Below, in pieces: positions 1-11,032 of a stretch of DNA of 11,032 bases. The notes below the pieces were generated by a model, which was given only the letters and a program-made list of their open reading frames with translations, was not told where the DNA came from and searched no databases. Origin of the DNA: a bacterium (GTDB lineage Bacteria; AUK180); the NCBI GenBank assembly GCA_030622125.1, contig JAUXGM010000076.1, positions 1 through 11,032 on the forward strand, given 5' to 3'. The position numbers and the translations under genes were made by a program. Each line of letters opens with the position of its first letter. Positions within the stretch are counted from its first letter, which is position 1.

Positions 1-7
1 AAAAAAA

Positions 8-14
8 GGAGAGA
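8..14 (+). promoter_or_regulatory. Shine-Dalgarno for the small peptide gene
   Basis: AGGAGAG lies 3 bases before the ATG at 18 (GGAG-to-ATG distance about 5 bases). This is a strong ribosome binding site and the main evidence that the short reading frame after it is translated. The promoter must lie left of the window. Confidence 0.75.
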
Positions 15-17
15 AAA

Positions 18-173
18 ATGAAGAAAAAATGGTCAAAGCCTGAAATTATGATGATAAATATCAATGCAAAACCACCACCACCGTGTAATCCGGCTAAACC
101 CCAAACTGAAAGATGCGATGCAACAAATCCTCAATATCTTGCACCCTGTAAAGGCGGTATTCCGTTATCTTAG
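18..173 (+). CDS. Putative RiPP precursor peptide, 51 aa, C-terminal Ser
   Basis: A 51-residue peptide of the ribosomally synthesised, modified type. It starts MKKKWSKPEI: the W-x-x-P-E-I pattern at residues 5-10 resembles the Y/W-x-x-P-x-L/I leader motif bound by PqqD-like recognition domains in lasso and related RiPPs. Residues 17-22 are AKPPPP, followed by Cys23, Cys33 and Cys44 spaced 10 and 11 residues apart, and the chain ends GGIPLS with a C-terminal serine. There is no hydrophobic signal peptide. A strong Shine-Dalgarno precedes the ATG, and TAGTAG gives two stops in a row. On the opposite strand, facing it, are an HPr-kinase-like gene and a nucleotidyltransferase, both known accessory types in lasso clusters. 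The assignment rests on the leader motif, size and neighbours. No cyclase, radical SAM, PqqD or transporter gene is visible, so the chemistry is unknown. It could instead be an unrelated small Cys/Pro peptide. Confidence 0.7.
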   Translation: MKKKWSKPEIMMININAKPPPPCNPAKPQTERCDATNPQYLAPCKGGIPLS

Positions 174-1073
174 TAGTTCCCTTCCAATAAATCTTTTGAA
201 ATATTTTTTGTTCCTTTTTAATTCTTTCTCAATAAAAAACCAGAAATAAAACCTTTCAAAAATTCCCGGCCTCTTGCAAGCTTTGATAAAACGGTTAAAG
301 GGATAGGGAAAATTTCTCACATTATAAAAGTCTTCCTTCAATTTTAACAATTTTTTATAATCATTAAAAAGTCCAATTTCTTTTAATTCATTTAAGACCG
401 TTTTTTTATCCATTTCCATATCATCAATATAGCACCACTCGGTAAAATGATAGAGCCTATCGGTAAAGTAATGAAAGACGGAATGGATCGTTGATACAAA
501 GAACTTATTATATATCATTTTTTTATTGAATTTTAATGGGATCTCAAACGGCTGCCAGTGGGGTTCAAAATTGATTTGAAAATTTTTATAATCTCCCCAT
601 ACCGTAATATGTGAACGAAATCTTATGCAATGTTCAATCTCGGATCTATCGGGAAGATGAAAATCCAATTCCCTCAGATAATCCAATATCTCATAGATAT
701 TATATCCATCAATAAAGATATCGATATCGGACATAAATCTTATACCGTAATTCTCGCGGTAAATATTTTGCAATAGATAAATTCCCTTTAATGGGATAAT
801 ATCGGGGAATCTTTTTTTCAGGTTCAGATAAAAATCATAAAAGATGGTATTTCGTACCATATTTTTATTATAAAATCTCATTAAAAATTTCATAAACCCA
901 TCCGAAAATGGATTTTTATTGTAATCTATAAGATTCTTATAGGCAATACCTCCTGTTTTATGAAAATTGAAAAGTTTTCTCATTCTATTTTCATCAAAAT
1001 TTTTCCTCAATCTTGAAAGATCGGGCTTCATTGAAGATAAAATAAGAAAATTCAGCTCAGAATCCGTCCACAA
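165..1073 (-). CDS. Nucleotidyltransferase family protein (NTP_transf_5-like)
   Basis: A 302-residue protein with the signature of the uncharacterised nucleotidyltransferase family (PF14907 type). It shows P-L-K-G at residues 94-97, then G-I-R-F-M-S-D-I-D at 110-118 with the paired aspartates D116 and D118 expected to bind metal. A later N-F-E-P-H-W segment (E170) sits where the family often has D-x-H-W. In RiPP clusters such proteins accompany HPr-kinase-like enzymes and modify the peptide, probably after phosphorylation. It overlaps the kinase gene by 17 bp, so the two are co-translated. The start used is TTG at 1073: an in-frame stop lies just upstream, and the segment S-E-L-N-F-L-I-L before Met15 fits the family N-terminus. 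ATG at 1031 is the alternative. Its last three codons and stop overlap the end of the precursor gene on the other strand. Substrate and donor nucleotide are unknown. Confidence 0.75.
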   Translation of the reverse strand: MWTDSELNFLILSSMKPDLSRLRKNFDENRMRKLFNFHKTGGIAYKNLIDYNKNPFSDGFMKFLMRFYNKNMVRNTIFYDFYLNLKKRFPDIIPLKGIYLLQNIYRENYGIRFMSDIDIFIDGYNIYEILDYLRELDFHLPDRSEIEHCIRFRSHITVWGDYKNFQINFEPHWQPFEIPLKFNKKMIYNKFFVSTIHSVFHYFTDRLYHFTEWCYIDDMEMDKKTVLNELKEIGLFNDYKKLLKLKEDFYNVRNFPYPFNRFIKACKRPGIFERFYFWFFIEKELKRNKKYFKRFIGRELLR

Positions 1074-1860
1074 AATCTTTTAATTCCCCTATCTTTTTCC
1101 ATACGAAAACATCTGATTTTTTTTCATAAAGATCCCACAAATAAAATCCTCTTTTAAAGTAATCCTTACTATAAAAACCAAAATTATGTATTGAATTTAA
1201 AAATGCCTCTGTCCTTAGCCTTTTTCTTTTGCATAAGAAAAATATCTCTACATTATTATCCAATACCTCCATTTTTTTTATAGAATCTATCTTAAAAACC
1301 TTTTCTCCGATAATATTTGAATAAAATGATGCCTCTTTTTTATCCCATCTTGAATTTACAAAAAGCGGTCTTGGAATAAAGGAAACCTCATTTTCATTCA
1401 TTAAAACATATTCATCGGTATAAACCCTTGCTCCCTTTTTATGGAAAAGATAGGCGATTGATGTTTTTCCGCTTTTACTTTCACCGACAAATATGTATTT
1501 TTTCCCCTTATATTCAACCAATGCAGCATGAATATTTATAAATCTTTTACTTAGGGAATAGGATATGTTGTATCTTATCCAGGTTGTCAAGGTAAGCTCA
1601 TAATCAATATTGCTCTTATCCTTTAAGTAAAAGTAATTATTCTTATGGTTCTGAAAAAGATAGAGATCTTTGTATGAAAAAAATCTGCCTGTAAAATTTG
1701 TCGGCATTGCTTCAATAAAATTCATAGAACTTTCAAAGGGAAAGAGCGAATCCGATACAAAGTTTTTTTCTATGATTCCTCCCAAATTATCACATTTAAA
1801 ATTAAAACTCTTTCCTAAAAAATTAAACTTTTTAATTTTTAAATGCCTTATCCCATTCAA
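1057..1860 (-). CDS. HPr kinase-like P-loop kinase, probable peptide-tailoring enzyme
   Basis: A 267-residue protein whose middle matches the HPr kinase/phosphorylase C-terminal fold. It has I-H-A-A-L-V at residues 110-115 with His111, a Walker A loop GESKSGKT at 126-133, and Y-T-D-E at 147-150 where HprK-type kinases carry S-D-D. It lacks the long N-terminal domain of true HprK and has no HPr gene nearby. It resembles instead the stand-alone kinases of RiPP clusters that phosphorylate a C-terminal serine, as known for paeninodin. The small peptide encoded opposite does end in serine. The likely start is TTG at 1860, overlapping the upstream CreD-like gene by 29 bp. No Shine-Dalgarno is seen, so translation is probably coupled, and the exact start is uncertain by a few codons. 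Its 3' end overlaps the nucleotidyltransferase gene by 17 bp. Confidence 0.78.
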   Translation of the reverse strand: MNGIRHLKIKKFNFLGKSFNFKCDNLGGIIEKNFVSDSLFPFESSMNFIEAMPTNFTGRFFSYKDLYLFQNHKNNYFYLKDKSNIDYELTLTTWIRYNISYSLSKRFINIHAALVEYKGKKYIFVGESKSGKTSIAYLFHKKGARVYTDEYVLMNENEVSFIPRPLFVNSRWDKKEASFYSNIIGEKVFKIDSIKKMEVLDNNVEIFFLCKRKRLRTEAFLNSIHNFGFYSKDYFKRGFYLWDLYEKKSDVFVWKKIGELKDFVDGF

Positions 1861-3037
1861 TTTTTGCAGTTTTCTGCATGATCAAAAAGAGCGTTAATAT
1901 AGACATAATTGTAACCATCAATCCGGTATACCCTTTAAAAAAATGAACGAAAGTAAATACAATAAGGTAAACAAATTGAGCAATACCTGCTTCAAAAAAT
2001 GCAAATTTGGTTCCTACAACGATCCTTAAATAACTTACTACAAGAAAGATCGAAACAACAGATGATATTATAAAACCAAGAAATAACGGTATATGATCAA
2101 CAAGATATGCCATCAAAAGATGAAAGGAAAAGAAAGATGCGGCAAGAAATATGTAGTGCATCGGATGGAATTTCATATTTTTTAATATTGAAAGGATGAA
2201 TATCATTAAAAAGAAAAAGAATAAAGAAATAGGTGCAAAATATGTAACCTTCGCAACCCATGGTCCCGGATTGAGTTTTTCCGGAACAGCTATTCCTATA
2301 TTAAATCCCGTAAGCAAGCTTGTAAATTTCCATGTCAATGTAGCACTATCTTCACTCTCTTTTTTCATTGTTGGTGATAGGCTGGTTTCCGGAAAATCAT
2401 ATCTTAAAAAATTTGTTTTCAAGATCAGAGAGAAATTTTTTACCCTGCCGACATTGCCATTATTTGATATGTTGTAAATCCAATTATTTGCACCTCTTGA
2501 CACATATTCAATTGAGAAATCAATTTCTTCGTTTGGTTTTAATATGAGTTCTTTTGAAATATCTTTTGAAAATACATTTATTTCTACCTCTTTTCCATTT
2601 ACAATGAAATGAAAATTATCATAGACCGCTCTTGTTTGTGGAAATGAAAATACTATCTTTCCCGATTTTCCCTGACTGCCTTTATATATAAAGGAATAGT
2701 CTGCCTTAAAATGTACACCGTAGAGATTATACCAGAGTAATCCTTTTTTTCTCGGGGTATATTTTATATCAACATTGATATCATTCTTTTCAAGCGGAAT
2801 ATTTATCCATTGAGTTTCATAATATTTTTTACCCTTACTGTTTGTTCTTAGAACTTTCTTATGCCAGTAAACATTAGGTTGCAATTGAATCTGATTCGTA
2901 CCCCATAAATTGTAAACCTTTTTTCTCAATTCACCGTAACTCATGTTTGATCTTGAACCGGTAATTCCACCGAGTACTAACCATGCTATCCAAGAGATAA
3001 CAAAAATAATAACAATGGGAAAAATTTTCTTAAACAT
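1832..3037 (-). CDS. CreD-like inner membrane protein
   Basis: A 401-residue membrane protein with the CreD (Cet) layout. There is an N-terminal membrane segment (about 5-24), a long soluble part predicted to lie outside the cytoplasm (25-264), then about five membrane segments (265-390). CreD-like marks are L-R-K-K-V-x-N-L-W-G-x-N-Q at 37-49, F-H-P-M-H-Y at 290-295, L-V-D-H-I at 312-316, and a basic tail K-I-E-W after the last helix, where CreD has R-R-V-D-W. CreD affects envelope stress and beta-lactam or colicin tolerance in enterobacteria, but its biochemical role is unknown. The start at 3037 is chosen over ATG 3058 because AGGAGGT precedes it and the upstream ATG lies inside the promoter -10 box. 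It is the first gene of the operon with the kinase and nucleotidyltransferase genes. The match is distant, so no symbol is given. Confidence 0.72.
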   Translation of the reverse strand: MFKKIFPIVIIFVISWIAWLVLGGITGSRSNMSYGELRKKVYNLWGTNQIQLQPNVYWHKKVLRTNSKGKKYYETQWINIPLEKNDINVDIKYTPRKKGLLWYNLYGVHFKADYSFIYKGSQGKSGKIVFSFPQTRAVYDNFHFIVNGKEVEINVFSKDISKELILKPNEEIDFSIEYVSRGANNWIYNISNNGNVGRVKNFSLILKTNFLRYDFPETSLSPTMKKESEDSATLTWKFTSLLTGFNIGIAVPEKLNPGPWVAKVTYFAPISLFFFFLMIFILSILKNMKFHPMHYIFLAASFFSFHLLMAYLVDHIPLFLGFIISSVVSIFLVVSYLRIVVGTKFAFFEAGIAQFVYLIVFTFVHFFKGYTGLMVTIMSILTLFLIMQKTAKIEWDKAFKN

Positions 3038-3040
3038 AAA

Positions 3041-3047
3041 ACCTCCT
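3041..3047 (-). promoter_or_regulatory. Shine-Dalgarno deciding the CreD-like start
   Basis: On the minus strand AGGAGGT is followed by TTT and the ATG at 3037. The perfect anti-16S match selects this ATG rather than the in-frame ATG at 3058. Confidence 0.8.
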
Positions 3048-3056
3048 GTTAATGAC

Positions 3057-3085
3057 ATTATATCTTTTTTTTATACTTTTTTCAA
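3057..3085 (-). promoter_or_regulatory. Sigma-70-type promoter of the CreD-like/kinase/nucleotidyltransferase operon
   Basis: On the minus strand TTGAAA (3085-3080), a 17-bp spacer and TATAAT (3062-3057) form a near-consensus promoter. Transcription would start near 3050, giving a leader of only about 13 bases that holds the Shine-Dalgarno. The -35 box overlaps the stop codon of the CPBP remnant. Confidence 0.75.
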
Positions 3086-3348
3086 TTTTTGTTGAATTTC
3101 ATTCCAATTGATAACATTGCTAATGTCCCACCTATATTAAAAAGTATATGTACGATAATTGCTGGGATGATACTTCCCGATCTTTCCCGATAATATCCTG
3201 CAAATAATCCCAAAATAAATCCGAAGAAGACAATATTGAAAACCGTCAATTTGTCTATGCTTATACCTAAATTGTGCGATTTGTATTTGCCTGTCTGCGT
3301 AAGGAACGCACAGGCAGAACAGAAATCACAAAATATGCTGCAATTCAT
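3082..3348 (-). pseudogene. C-terminal remnant of a CPBP (Abi) intramembrane protease
   Basis: The last 60 or so residues match the C-terminal motifs of CPBP/CAAX-like intramembrane metalloproteases. There is a helix F-F-G-F-I-L-G-L-F-A-G-Y-Y-R-E-R-S-G-S-I, then P-A-I-I-V-H-I-L-F-N-I, with the histidine and asparagine of the last conserved motif. The E-E-x-x-x-R motif and the earlier F-x-x-x-H motif, both needed for activity, are missing. The first ~25 residues of the reading frame come from a palindromic repeat (3288-3318) and noncoding sequence and show no homology. Only about 80 bp separate the frame from the divergent nitrilase gene, so no intact N-terminal half fits here. I read it as a broken gene, truncated where the repeat sits. 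It ends just before the CreD-like gene on the same strand and has no evident promoter of its own. Confidence 0.7.
3288..3318. repeat. Imperfect palindrome at the CPBP break
   Basis: Left arm TGCCTGTCTGCGT (3288-3300) and right arm ACGCACAGGCAGA (3306-3318) pair as TGCCTG plus TGCGT, with a two-base bulge and an AAGGA loop. Its GC content is clearly above the surroundings. It marks the point where the CPBP homology stops and looks like a short inserted hairpin element. No second copy is seen in the window. Confidence 0.55.
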
Positions 3349-3394
3349 TAAAATATACCGAATTTTTTGTAAAAAATCAAATAAACTCTCGAAT

Positions 3395-3423
3395 TTGAAA
3401 AAATCGAATAATTTTTGTATAAT
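3395..3423 (+). promoter_or_regulatory. Sigma-70-type promoter of the nitrilase operon, probably leaderless
   Basis: TTGAAA (3395-3400), a 17-bp spacer and TATAAT (3418-3423) match consensus closely. Only five bases separate the -10 box from the ATG at 3429, and no Shine-Dalgarno is present. Transcription would therefore begin at or next to the start codon, giving a leaderless mRNA. Confidence 0.72.
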
Positions 3424-3428
3424 AGATT

Positions 3429-4196
3429 ATGAAAATCGGGTATGTGCAATTTAATCCGAACTTATTGAAAATTGAAGAAAATTTAAAGCGGGTCGAATCA
3501 CTTTTAAAAAATATAGATGCCGATCTGATCGTTCTTCCCGAGCTTTTTAATACAGGATATACCTTTAAGAGTATGAATGAGGTAAAAAATGTATCGGAAA
3601 AAATACCGGGTGGAAGGACAACTCAATTCTTAATCGGAATTGCAAAAAAACATAATATCTTCATCTCCGGTGGTATTTCCGAGATTGACGGTGATGATCT
3701 CTACAATTCATCCGCTTTTGTCGGTCCGAATGGTTATATCGGAAAATACAGAAAGGTTCATCTTTATTATAAGGAAAAACTTTTTTTCAAAAGGGGCAAT
3801 CTCGGTTATCCGATATATGAGATAAAAGGTGTAAAGGTTGGAATGCTGATCTGTTTTGATTGGATCTTTCCCGAAGCAATGCGAAGCCTTGCACTTAACG
3901 GAGCGCAGATCATCTTGCATTCTACCAATCTTGTTCTACCGTTCTATCAAATGGCATCAAGGGTGCGTGCACTTGAGAATCGTGTTTTTATAATAATTTC
4001 AAATAGGTACGGAAAGGAAATAAACGGAATAGAAAAAAATTCATTTACAGGCGGTTCTCAGATCGTTGATCCTGCCGGGATTGTTCTGATAAGTTCGCCA
4101 AAGATCGGTGATGAAGTCAAGGTAATTGATATCAATCCGGATAACGCAAAAAATAAAGATATTAATGAATTTAATAATCTGATGGAAGATATCTGA
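3429..4196 (+). CDS. Nitrilase-superfamily carbon-nitrogen hydrolase (amidase)
   Basis: A 255-residue cytoplasmic hydrolase of the nitrilase superfamily, which cleaves non-peptide C-N bonds in amides, carbamoyl compounds or nitriles. The catalytic triad is visible: Glu38 in L-P-E-L-F-N-T-G-Y, Lys109 in Y-R-K-V-H-L, and Cys142 in L-I-C-F-D-W-I-F-P-E. The N-terminus M-K-I-G-Y-V-Q-F-N-P is the normal first strand of the family, which supports the ATG at 3429 despite the lack of a ribosome binding site. The length is typical of the omega-amidase, N-carbamoylputrescine amidase and beta-ureidopropionase branch. I cannot fix the substrate. It heads a three-gene plus-strand operon, and its TGA overlaps the ATG of the NUDIX gene by one base (TGATG), so translation is coupled. 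Confidence 0.9.
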   Translation: MKIGYVQFNPNLLKIEENLKRVESLLKNIDADLIVLPELFNTGYTFKSMNEVKNVSEKIPGGRTTQFLIGIAKKHNIFISGGISEIDGDDLYNSSAFVGPNGYIGKYRKVHLYYKEKLFFKRGNLGYPIYEIKGVKVGMLICFDWIFPEAMRSLALNGAQIILHSTNLVLPFYQMASRVRALENRVFIIISNRYGKEINGIEKNSFTGGSQIVDPAGIVLISSPKIGDEVKVIDINPDNAKNKDINEFNNLMEDI

Positions 4197-4615
4197 TGTT
4201 CAGAAAGGGAGCAGTTGCGATTATAACAAATGATAAAGGTAAAGTTCTGGCATTTCAAAGAAGGGATTATCAAACAACATATCAATTACCGCAAGGCGGC
4301 ATTGGAAAAAATGAGGATATAAAAGAGACATTATTACGAGAGCTGAATGAGGAAACCGGTATTGAAGATATAACGATCATCAAAAAATGTGACAAAGAAA
4401 TCTGTTATAAAAAGCCGTTCAAAAAAGATAATAACGAATATGAGGGACAATGTCATATTTATTTTTTATGTAAATTAAATAATGAGTGGAAATTTAAAAA
4501 AAACAACGAATTTATTTCCTTCAAATGGATGAGTTTTGATGAATTATTAAATAAATTGCCTCCATTTAAAAAAGATGCCGTGAAAAAAGCATTTATATAT
4601 TTCAATCTGATTTAG
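4196..4615 (+). CDS. NUDIX hydrolase, RppH/Ap4A-hydrolase-like
   Basis: A 139-residue NUDIX protein. The complete box G-x5-E-x7-R-E-L-x-E-E-x-G-I runs from residue 34 to 56 (G34, E40, R48, E49, E52, E53, G55), so the metal-binding glutamates are intact. The Q-L-P-Q-G-G-I sequence leading into the box is characteristic of RNA pyrophosphohydrolase (RppH) and dinucleoside polyphosphate hydrolases. The N-terminus F-R-K-G-A-V-A-I-I also fits that group. It probably hydrolyses a nucleoside polyphosphate or an mRNA 5' end, but the family is broad and the substrate cannot be read from sequence. It is translationally coupled to the nitrilase gene, and its TAG overlaps the Shine-Dalgarno of the next gene. 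Confidence 0.88.
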   Translation: MFRKGAVAIITNDKGKVLAFQRRDYQTTYQLPQGGIGKNEDIKETLLRELNEETGIEDITIIKKCDKEICYKKPFKKDNNEYEGQCHIYFLCKLNNEWKFKKNNEFISFKWMSFDELLNKLPPFKKDAVKKAFIYFNLI

Positions 4616-10724: not shown

Positions 10725-10789
10725 ATAATAAAATGCCAATTGATAAGACAATAAGTAAAACAATATTAATCTCCGTTTCAAACAAAAGA

Positions 10790-10835
10790 GGGACATTACC
10801 TCAACAAACTGATTTTTTTTGTTGAGGTGTGTCCC
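10790..10835. repeat. Hairpin element 1 (GGGAC...GTCCC)
   Basis: The left arm (10790-10808) and right arm (10818-10835) pair over an 11-bp stretch ACCTCAACAAA/TTTGTTGAGGT, plus an outer GGGAC/GTCCC clamp interrupted by a small mismatch (ATT against GT). The loop is T-rich. It resembles REP or MITE-type palindromes spread between genes. Confidence 0.7.
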
Positions 10836-10850
10836 GGACTCTTCCTTAGA
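10821..10850. repeat. 30-bp direct repeat, copy 1
   Basis: It begins GTTGAGGTGTGTCCC, the right arm of hairpin element 1, and ends TTCCTTAGA. It matches the copy at 11003-11032 at 28 of 30 positions. Confidence 0.75.
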
Positions 10851-10945
10851 TAACGATAAACCTCCCGAGAACAATATAGCCAAGGTAATAAGAAAATAAG
10901 TTAATAAGGGAATAAGTGAAAAAATATTAAATTCAGAAAACAAGC

Positions 10946-10996
10946 GGGACGTACCTTCCCGTATCAGATACGGGATAAACTCCGAAGGTGCGTCCC
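10946..10996. repeat. Hairpin element 2 with nested hairpin
   Basis: The outer arms GGGACGTACCTTC (10946-10958) and GAAGGTGCGTCCC (10984-10996) pair at 12 of 13 positions. Inside lies a second stem, CCCGTATC (10958-10965) with GATACGGG (10967-10974) around a single-base loop. It shares the GGGAC...ACCT / AGGT...GTCCC plan with element 1, so both belong to one family. Confidence 0.7.
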
Positions 10997-11002
10997 AAGA
11001 AA

Positions 11003-11032
11003 GTTGAGGTGTGTCCCGAATTCTTCCTTAGA
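11003..11032. repeat. 30-bp direct repeat, copy 2 (reaches window edge)
   Basis: Same sequence as 10821-10850 with two mismatches, 182 bp further on. It contains a right arm with no left arm beside it; the only possible partner in the window is the left arm of element 1. It may extend beyond the last base. Confidence 0.75.

Follow-up and report, generated by a model that had tools for sequence, protein, structure and literature searches.

A short conserved gene at a contig edge as the probable precursor of a lineage-specific PqqD/radical SAM RiPP

The window, meaning the whole 11,032-nucleotide stretch analysed, is an entire contig (C56) of the host assembly, a 2.08-Mb draft in 192 contigs that is 96% complete. 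Its first base lies 17 bases before the ATG of a 51-codon open reading frame, which a sequence-only reading had singled out as a RiPP-like precursor gene preceded by a strong Shine-Dalgarno sequence and lying beside a kinase and a nucleotidyltransferase. The coordinates of the frame and its Shine-Dalgarno sequence were confirmed, and the features of the locus are as follows.

1..21, + strand: possible last codons of an upstream (maturase) gene, KKRREK*, at the contig edge
7..11, + strand: Shine-Dalgarno sequence AGGAG, read directly, six bases before the ATG
18..173, + strand: probable RiPP precursor gene, 51 amino acids, with a leader of about residues 1-17 and a core of about residues 18-51 (open reading frame list, homologs in 4 of 4 family relatives, alignment, purifying selection, profile search)
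30..41, + strand: WxxP motif W5-S-K-P8, predicted PqqD/RRE-binding leader sequence (PMC12710340, PMC13381572), with W5 and P8 unchanged in every family member
84..149, + strand: core with three invariant cysteines in the family alignment, C-x9-C-x10-C (Cys23 at 84-86, Cys33 at 114-116, Cys44 at 147-149)
168..170, + strand: invariant C-terminal Ser51 in the alignment, a possible kinase target by comparison with PadeK/PsmK (PMC9266682)
165..1073, - strand: NTP_transf_5 nucleotidyltransferase (PF14907; 47.1 bits against a cut-off of 31.2)
1057..1860, - strand: HPr-kinase-like P-loop kinase with His, GKT and TDE motif (motif alignment, structure model)

Translated from its ATG, the frame reads MKKKWSKPEIMMININAKPPPPCNPAKPQTERCDATNPQYLAPCKGGIPLS, with an N-terminal leader that contains KKKWSKPEI. 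A short frame is by itself no evidence of a gene, since 54 open reading frames of at least 40 amino acids are listed in the window. Codon usage in the frame of the peptide exceeds that of 1999 of 2000 shuffles. The KKRREK* frame (bases 1-21) stops as ATGA over the peptide start, an overlap that is weakly consistent with the 3′ end of an upstream gene, because ATGA is unavoidable once the second codon starts with A. At its other end the peptide gene converges with the nucleotidyltransferase gene, and the two 3′ ends share nine bases (165-173). A repeat or assembly artefact was rejected as the source of the peptide, whose start is found once in the host genome, and a degenerate DNA pattern for paralogous precursors was uninformative, matching as often as its reversed control did.

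Conservation in relatives identifies the peptide gene as real. Eight genomes, namely the host, four more from its family, two from its class and a distant one, were searched in six frames with E-values calculated per genome, and homologs came from all four family relatives: G001 (E = 3.3e-9), G003 (1.3e-8), G004 (5.2e-8) and G002 (1.3e-5). Each homolog is 48 amino acids long and 51-60% identical to the window peptide. Across the alignment of the five family peptides W5, P8, C23, C33, C44, L50 and S51 are invariant, the common pattern is MK.KW..P, CNP..PQ...C.A..PQ....C and a C-terminal LS, and the C-x9-C-x10-C spacing is kept throughout. The three cysteines and the terminal serine, at the positions given earlier from the sequence alone, are thus family-wide; the proline-rich segment noted with them is present in the window, but its PPPP belongs to a four-residue insertion unique to this genome. 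Synonymous sites are close to saturated in most of the ten pairs of peptide genes, all of which give pN/pS values of 0.20-0.50, and by this measure the gene is evolving under purifying selection.

The family is narrow. A peptide profile run against 386 genomes recovered the five family members at E-values of 1e-24 or better, and no convincing match among the 381 genomes outside the family. Matches from other lineages, none better than E = 3e-4, were partial, several with stop codons, and were put down to chance; G006, a neighbour from the class, gave a match (E = 0.14) that was rejected because, judged from its locus, it runs antisense to a sugar-transporter-like coding sequence. Searches of phage records and viral contigs gave no match to the peptide, and no curated peptide family in Pfam or NCBIfam matched it, in keeping with the earlier remark that the core was not recognised as a known lasso, lanthipeptide or sactipeptide type. 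The peptide family apparently spans one uncultivated bacterial family.

Each of the four relatives has the peptide gene at the end of a cassette of fixed order, PqqD - radical SAM/SPASM - peptide, in which PqqD has 85-86 and the radical SAM protein 325-331 amino acids, the 3′ end of the radical SAM gene overlaps the peptide start, and a gene for a 685-702-residue OmpA/TPR outer-membrane protein precedes PqqD. Genes at these fetched loci were called as greedy open reading frames, and the absence of a gene type at a locus was judged by reading the frame lists. The PqqD (PF05402) and Radical_SAM (PF04055) domains pass their Pfam cut-offs, while SPASM lies above its cut-off at one locus (L126) and slightly under at another (L124). 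Every maturase has CxxxCxxC and the SPASM-type cysteines C232, C253, C290, C293, C299 and C303 (L126 numbering). The modification genes that had been anticipated to the left are therefore found directly upstream in each relative, and the leader, likened beforehand to those read by PqqD-type domains, is accompanied by a PqqD encoded two genes upstream.

A short conserved gene co-encoded with a PqqD-type recognition element and a radical SAM/SPASM protein in four genomes, and carrying an invariant W5xxP8 with predicted binding to that element, argues that the frame at 18-173 is the precursor of a lineage-specific PqqD/radical SAM RiPP, a reading to which we assign a probability of about 0.8. The product and the binding of the leader are sequence-based predictions, and the peptide could in principle be a small cysteine-containing regulatory or structural protein that follows a radical SAM gene by chance. 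We consider this exceedingly improbable, as four genomes retain the gene order, with the genes overlapping, and the WxxP leader resembles those of precursors bound by recognition elements.

The maturases give some indication of the chemistry. By sequence, their closest solved structures are SkfB, a sactisynthase, and PqqE. No equivalog cut-off was reached in an NCBIfam scan, where the scores were 86.7 bits for PapB (cut-off 340), 72.1 for StsB (625) and 60.4 for AlbA (850). The core thus has the conserved cysteine donors of sacti- and ranthipeptides, and the maturases fall outside the curated families. Given the three invariant cysteines and the SPASM relatives, thioether formation on the core is the most likely chemistry, at slightly better than even odds; sequence cannot separate it from C-C or other radical SAM chemistry. 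PqqE and the mycofactocin maturase are among the best NCBIfam matches, all well below cut-off, and conservation inside the family is strong, so one alternative is that the peptide yields a small redox cofactor of the PQQ or mycofactocin kind in place of a secreted or surface peptide. The core, however, has three invariant cysteines and neither an invariant Tyr nor a Glu-Tyr pair, and no cofactor-processing genes are recognisable in the cassettes, which makes a cofactor very unlikely. The frame lists of the relatives' cassettes contained no recognisable protease or exporter.

For the host itself, nothing to the left of the peptide is readable because the contig begins so close to the ATG. No maturase ortholog was found in the host assembly, either among 28 PF04055 matches or by direct search, and a maturase on another contig end was rejected on the same evidence; a maturase to the left is thus placed there by synteny. 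The assembly likewise yielded no second PqqD, the sole one lying on contig C81. In G004 the cassette sits between the OmpA/TPR and rhomboid-like genes, whereas on host contig C34 the OmpA/TPR ortholog stands beside the rhomboid-like gene without the cassette, so the cassette has probably moved in the host genome, its remainder falling in an assembly gap. Comparison of the two loci (L134 on C34, L125 in G004) shows the cassette site empty in the host, with the two flanking genes adjacent. From the gene order in relatives we infer that a PqqD/radical SAM cassette very likely lies to the left of the contig; complete loss of the maturase from the host genome is conceivable.

Two further observations concern the state of the contig. 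Positions 10783-11032 are a dispersed repeat, pieces of which are 81-100% identical at many host loci, including the end of C34, and which probably causes contig breaks. At 3082-3348, an 88-residue frame aligns to the C-terminal end of the Rce1-like CAAX protease profile (PF02517, positions 59-92 of 93) and to no other part of it, and looks like a truncated gene.

The kinase and nucleotidyltransferase beside the peptide gene are real, as had been proposed. Pfam and NCBIfam matches of the kinase remain under cut-off. Its structure model has low overall confidence (mean pLDDT 59, with residues 1-89 unreliable) and the P-loop core alone was used; for that core HPr kinase/phosphatase is the top Foldseek match (E = 1.5e-4, probability 1.00), and as modelled the kinase has an HPr-kinase fold. 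Its motif is His-Lys-Asp-Glu, as against the published His-Lys-Asp-Asp (PMC9266682). The pair does not always accompany the peptide, a point that the sequence-only reading had put forward for checking. In G001, G003 and G004 the pair, 28-36% identical to that of the window, occurs at other loci beside other genes, with no such peptide adjoining. G002 keeps both peptide and maturase, but a search for the kinase there found none. The two enzymes were therefore rejected as obligate partners of the peptide. In G001 and G004 the kinase/NTP_transf_5 pair is preceded by a conserved run of genes for a P-II-like protein, a GAF-domain protein and a protein of 512-524 residues (L016, L018, L126), and in G002 the corresponding run comes after the peptide cassette; this shared run is a hint of a link between pair and cassette.

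The C-terminal Ser of pseudomycoidin receives a phosphate from PsmK, and hexoses are attached by PsmN (PMC9266682); an invariant C-terminal Ser beside the same enzyme pair is, by analogy, suggestive. Modification of Ser51 by the window pair is nevertheless a tentative proposal of low probability, weakened by the missing kinase in G002 and by the location of the pair elsewhere in three relatives. A stronger version would make the peptide the substrate of these two enzymes alone, a linear phosphorylated product of the LPP type for which radical SAM chemistry is merely ancestral here. The pair does adjoin the gene, with the nucleotidyltransferase overlapping it convergently, the terminal serine is invariant and the host assembly gave no maturase ortholog. 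The LPP core set, as given in the available text of PMC13381572, consists of SpI, RRE, HprK, NTP transferase and an MsbA transporter, yet the window showed no recognisable SpI gene, and the PqqD on C81 is the only one found in the host genome. The three cysteines and the surrounding core also stay conserved in the host, and the relatives couple the peptide to radical SAM and PqqD, not to a kinase, so that we judge this version very improbable.

The PqqD on C81 belongs to a second cluster (L004, positions 1547-4404; counterparts at L108-L112). This cluster encodes PqqD, a lasso-B2-like transglutaminase-fold protein (PF13471 barely above cut-off, NF033537 barely below), a radical SAM/SPASM protein, a 50-residue peptide, MSTNRYSKPILVKYEKVRDVTTASVMAEGTANAADCTLTRCTSEPPTIKG, and an HprK-like kinase. 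The same order recurs in three genomes of the family and two of the class, the G006 contig being without the kinase end, and in each of these the radical SAM gene is followed by a peptide of this type, with counterparts of 50-51 residues and a core of DCTLTRC, SCALGRC or DCALGRC. The C81 radical SAM protein shares 58-69% identity with its counterparts from three members of the family and 46-47% with those from two members of the class, compared with 29% over about 300 residues with the G002 maturase. On these comparisons C81 is a distinct RiPP cluster, conserved more widely than the window type.

The motif [W/Y]xxP is bound by PqqD-type recognition elements (available sections of PMC12710340), and its two forms divide the two clusters, with WxxP in 5 of 5 window-type leaders and YxxP in 6 of 6 C81-type leaders (WSKP versus YSKP in the host). 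In Bacillota, lasso (WxxP) and LPP (YxxP) pathways are kept apart by Asn33/Asp70 of LppB as against Gly42/Gln79 of PbaB1, according to the accessible parts of PMC13381572. We mapped these positions through PDB chains 9x8z_B and 9x90_B with a residue offset of 18. The equivalent of Asn33 is Asn in all six YxxP-type PqqDs and Glu in all four WxxP-type ones, a difference that counts as one evolutionary contrast because orthologs are not independent; Asp70 is kept in both types, and the PqqD of a Nitrospirae WxxP cluster keeps Asn at the Asn33 position. The position at which the two PqqDs diverge contributes to the W/Y choice of the Bacillota pair, so leader recognition probably insulates the two pathways from each other, which we would put at about an even chance.

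The same residues bear on whether the window peptide could be matured in trans by the C81 enzymes (PqqD, lasso-B2-like protease and radical SAM protein), its own maturase having been lost in the species. C81 does hold the sole PqqD and the sole RiPP-maturase-like radical SAM protein found in the assembly. The leaders differ, though, the C81 PqqD retains the Asn of YxxP-type recognition elements, and G002 keeps the peptide with its own radical SAM gene while the C81-type protein was not found there; maturation in trans is accordingly very improbable.

As a PqqD/radical SAM RiPP, the window peptide would be processed in the following way. The WxxP motif of the N-terminal leader would be bound by a discrete PqqD-type recognition protein, which would present the C-terminal core to the radical SAM/SPASM enzyme from the adjoining upstream gene. 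This maturase would then most likely link the three invariant cysteines to carbons of the backbone or of side chains, giving thioether bridges of the sacti- or ranthipeptide kind, and a protease encoded outside the cassette would free the core from its leader. The HprK-like kinase and NTP_transf_5 may phosphorylate Ser51 and then glycosylate or nucleotidylate it, as PsmK and PsmN act on pseudomycoidin.

The best maturase match outside the family, 31% identical, comes from a Nitrospirae MAG (L139), where NTP_transf_5, HprK-like, radical SAM, a 60-residue peptide and PqqD genes form one run, followed by a frame read as transglutaminase-like without a supporting Pfam match. The 60-residue peptide has a WEKP leader, C-x9-C-x12-C and a C-terminal Ser, and the cluster suggests that one peptide may receive both radical cross-linking and C-terminal Ser modification. 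At six loci of other lineages (L019, L020, L024, L113, L114, L116), short YxxP-leader peptides occur near PqqD, one or two radical SAM genes and HprK-like kinase homologs, with genes that by eye resemble S26 peptidases, an arrangement that recalls LPP clusters with radical SAM added. The combination of three-Cys radical cross-linking with C-terminal Ser phosphorylation or glycosylation on one peptide was not found in the available portions of the cited literature. The most far-reaching reading would have two radical SAM RiPP pathways in one uncultivated lineage, insulated by W/Y leader discrimination that works through a PqqD Asn/Glu difference and evolved separately from that of the Bacillota lasso and LPP pathways, and one product both radical-cross-linked at three cysteines and phosphorylated or glycosylated at its terminal serine; taken together, we regard this as doubtful.

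The locus adds a previously undescribed RiPP precursor family, overlooked by the curated libraries, in which the peptide has no Pfam or NCBIfam match. It is also a second natural case of WxxP and YxxP leaders occurring together, and offers ready-made pairs on which to test, outside Bacillota, the published model of insulation by recognition proteins.

Among known systems, the SynChlorMet cassette and HPr-rel-A (TIGR04248-04251, TIGR04352-04353) likewise place PqqD, radical SAM/SPASM and an HprK-related kinase near small peptides, but all matches here are below the curated cut-offs and there is a single radical SAM protein. LPP systems share the discrete RRE, the HprK-like kinase, the NTP transferase and, within a single genome, two pathways distinguished by W or Y in their leaders. 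They differ in that radical SAM is present here and the lineage is not Bacillota according to its records, and frame lists of the five genomes gave no recognised SpI peptidase or MsbA-like transporter beside the peptide. Paeninodin-like phosphorylated lasso peptides (PadeK; PsmK/PsmN) have in common with the window the WxxP leader, HprK-like kinase, NTP transferase and C-terminal Ser (available sections of PMC9266682, PMC13381572). For the kinase the resemblance is partial, with an invariant Ser and an HPr-kinase fold on one side and, on the other, an enzyme outside the peptide operon, as is the NTP transferase, and not found in G002. A radical SAM maturase sets our system apart from these, and frame lists of the window and the relatives' cassettes gave no recognised lasso protein C or B2, the B2-like gene occurring in the C81 cluster only.

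Sacti- and ranthipeptides (SkfB, StsB, PapB) have the short precursor, RRE-motif leader, SPASM radical SAM protein and core cysteines seen here, with SkfB the nearest solved maturase and KPxWxxP used by the StsA leader (available sections of PMC12710340). Against these, PqqD is discrete, the core sequence has no known match, the thioethers are predicted, and the maturases score far under the NCBIfam cut-offs of StsB, PapB and AlbA. RiPP pathways that combine PqqD with a SPASM radical SAM protein are well known. The earlier suggestion that the class may be new thus holds for the family, for which no NCBIfam equivalog cut-off was reached, and not for the kind: the peptide is new as a family and known as a kind, that of PqqD/radical SAM RiPP precursors.
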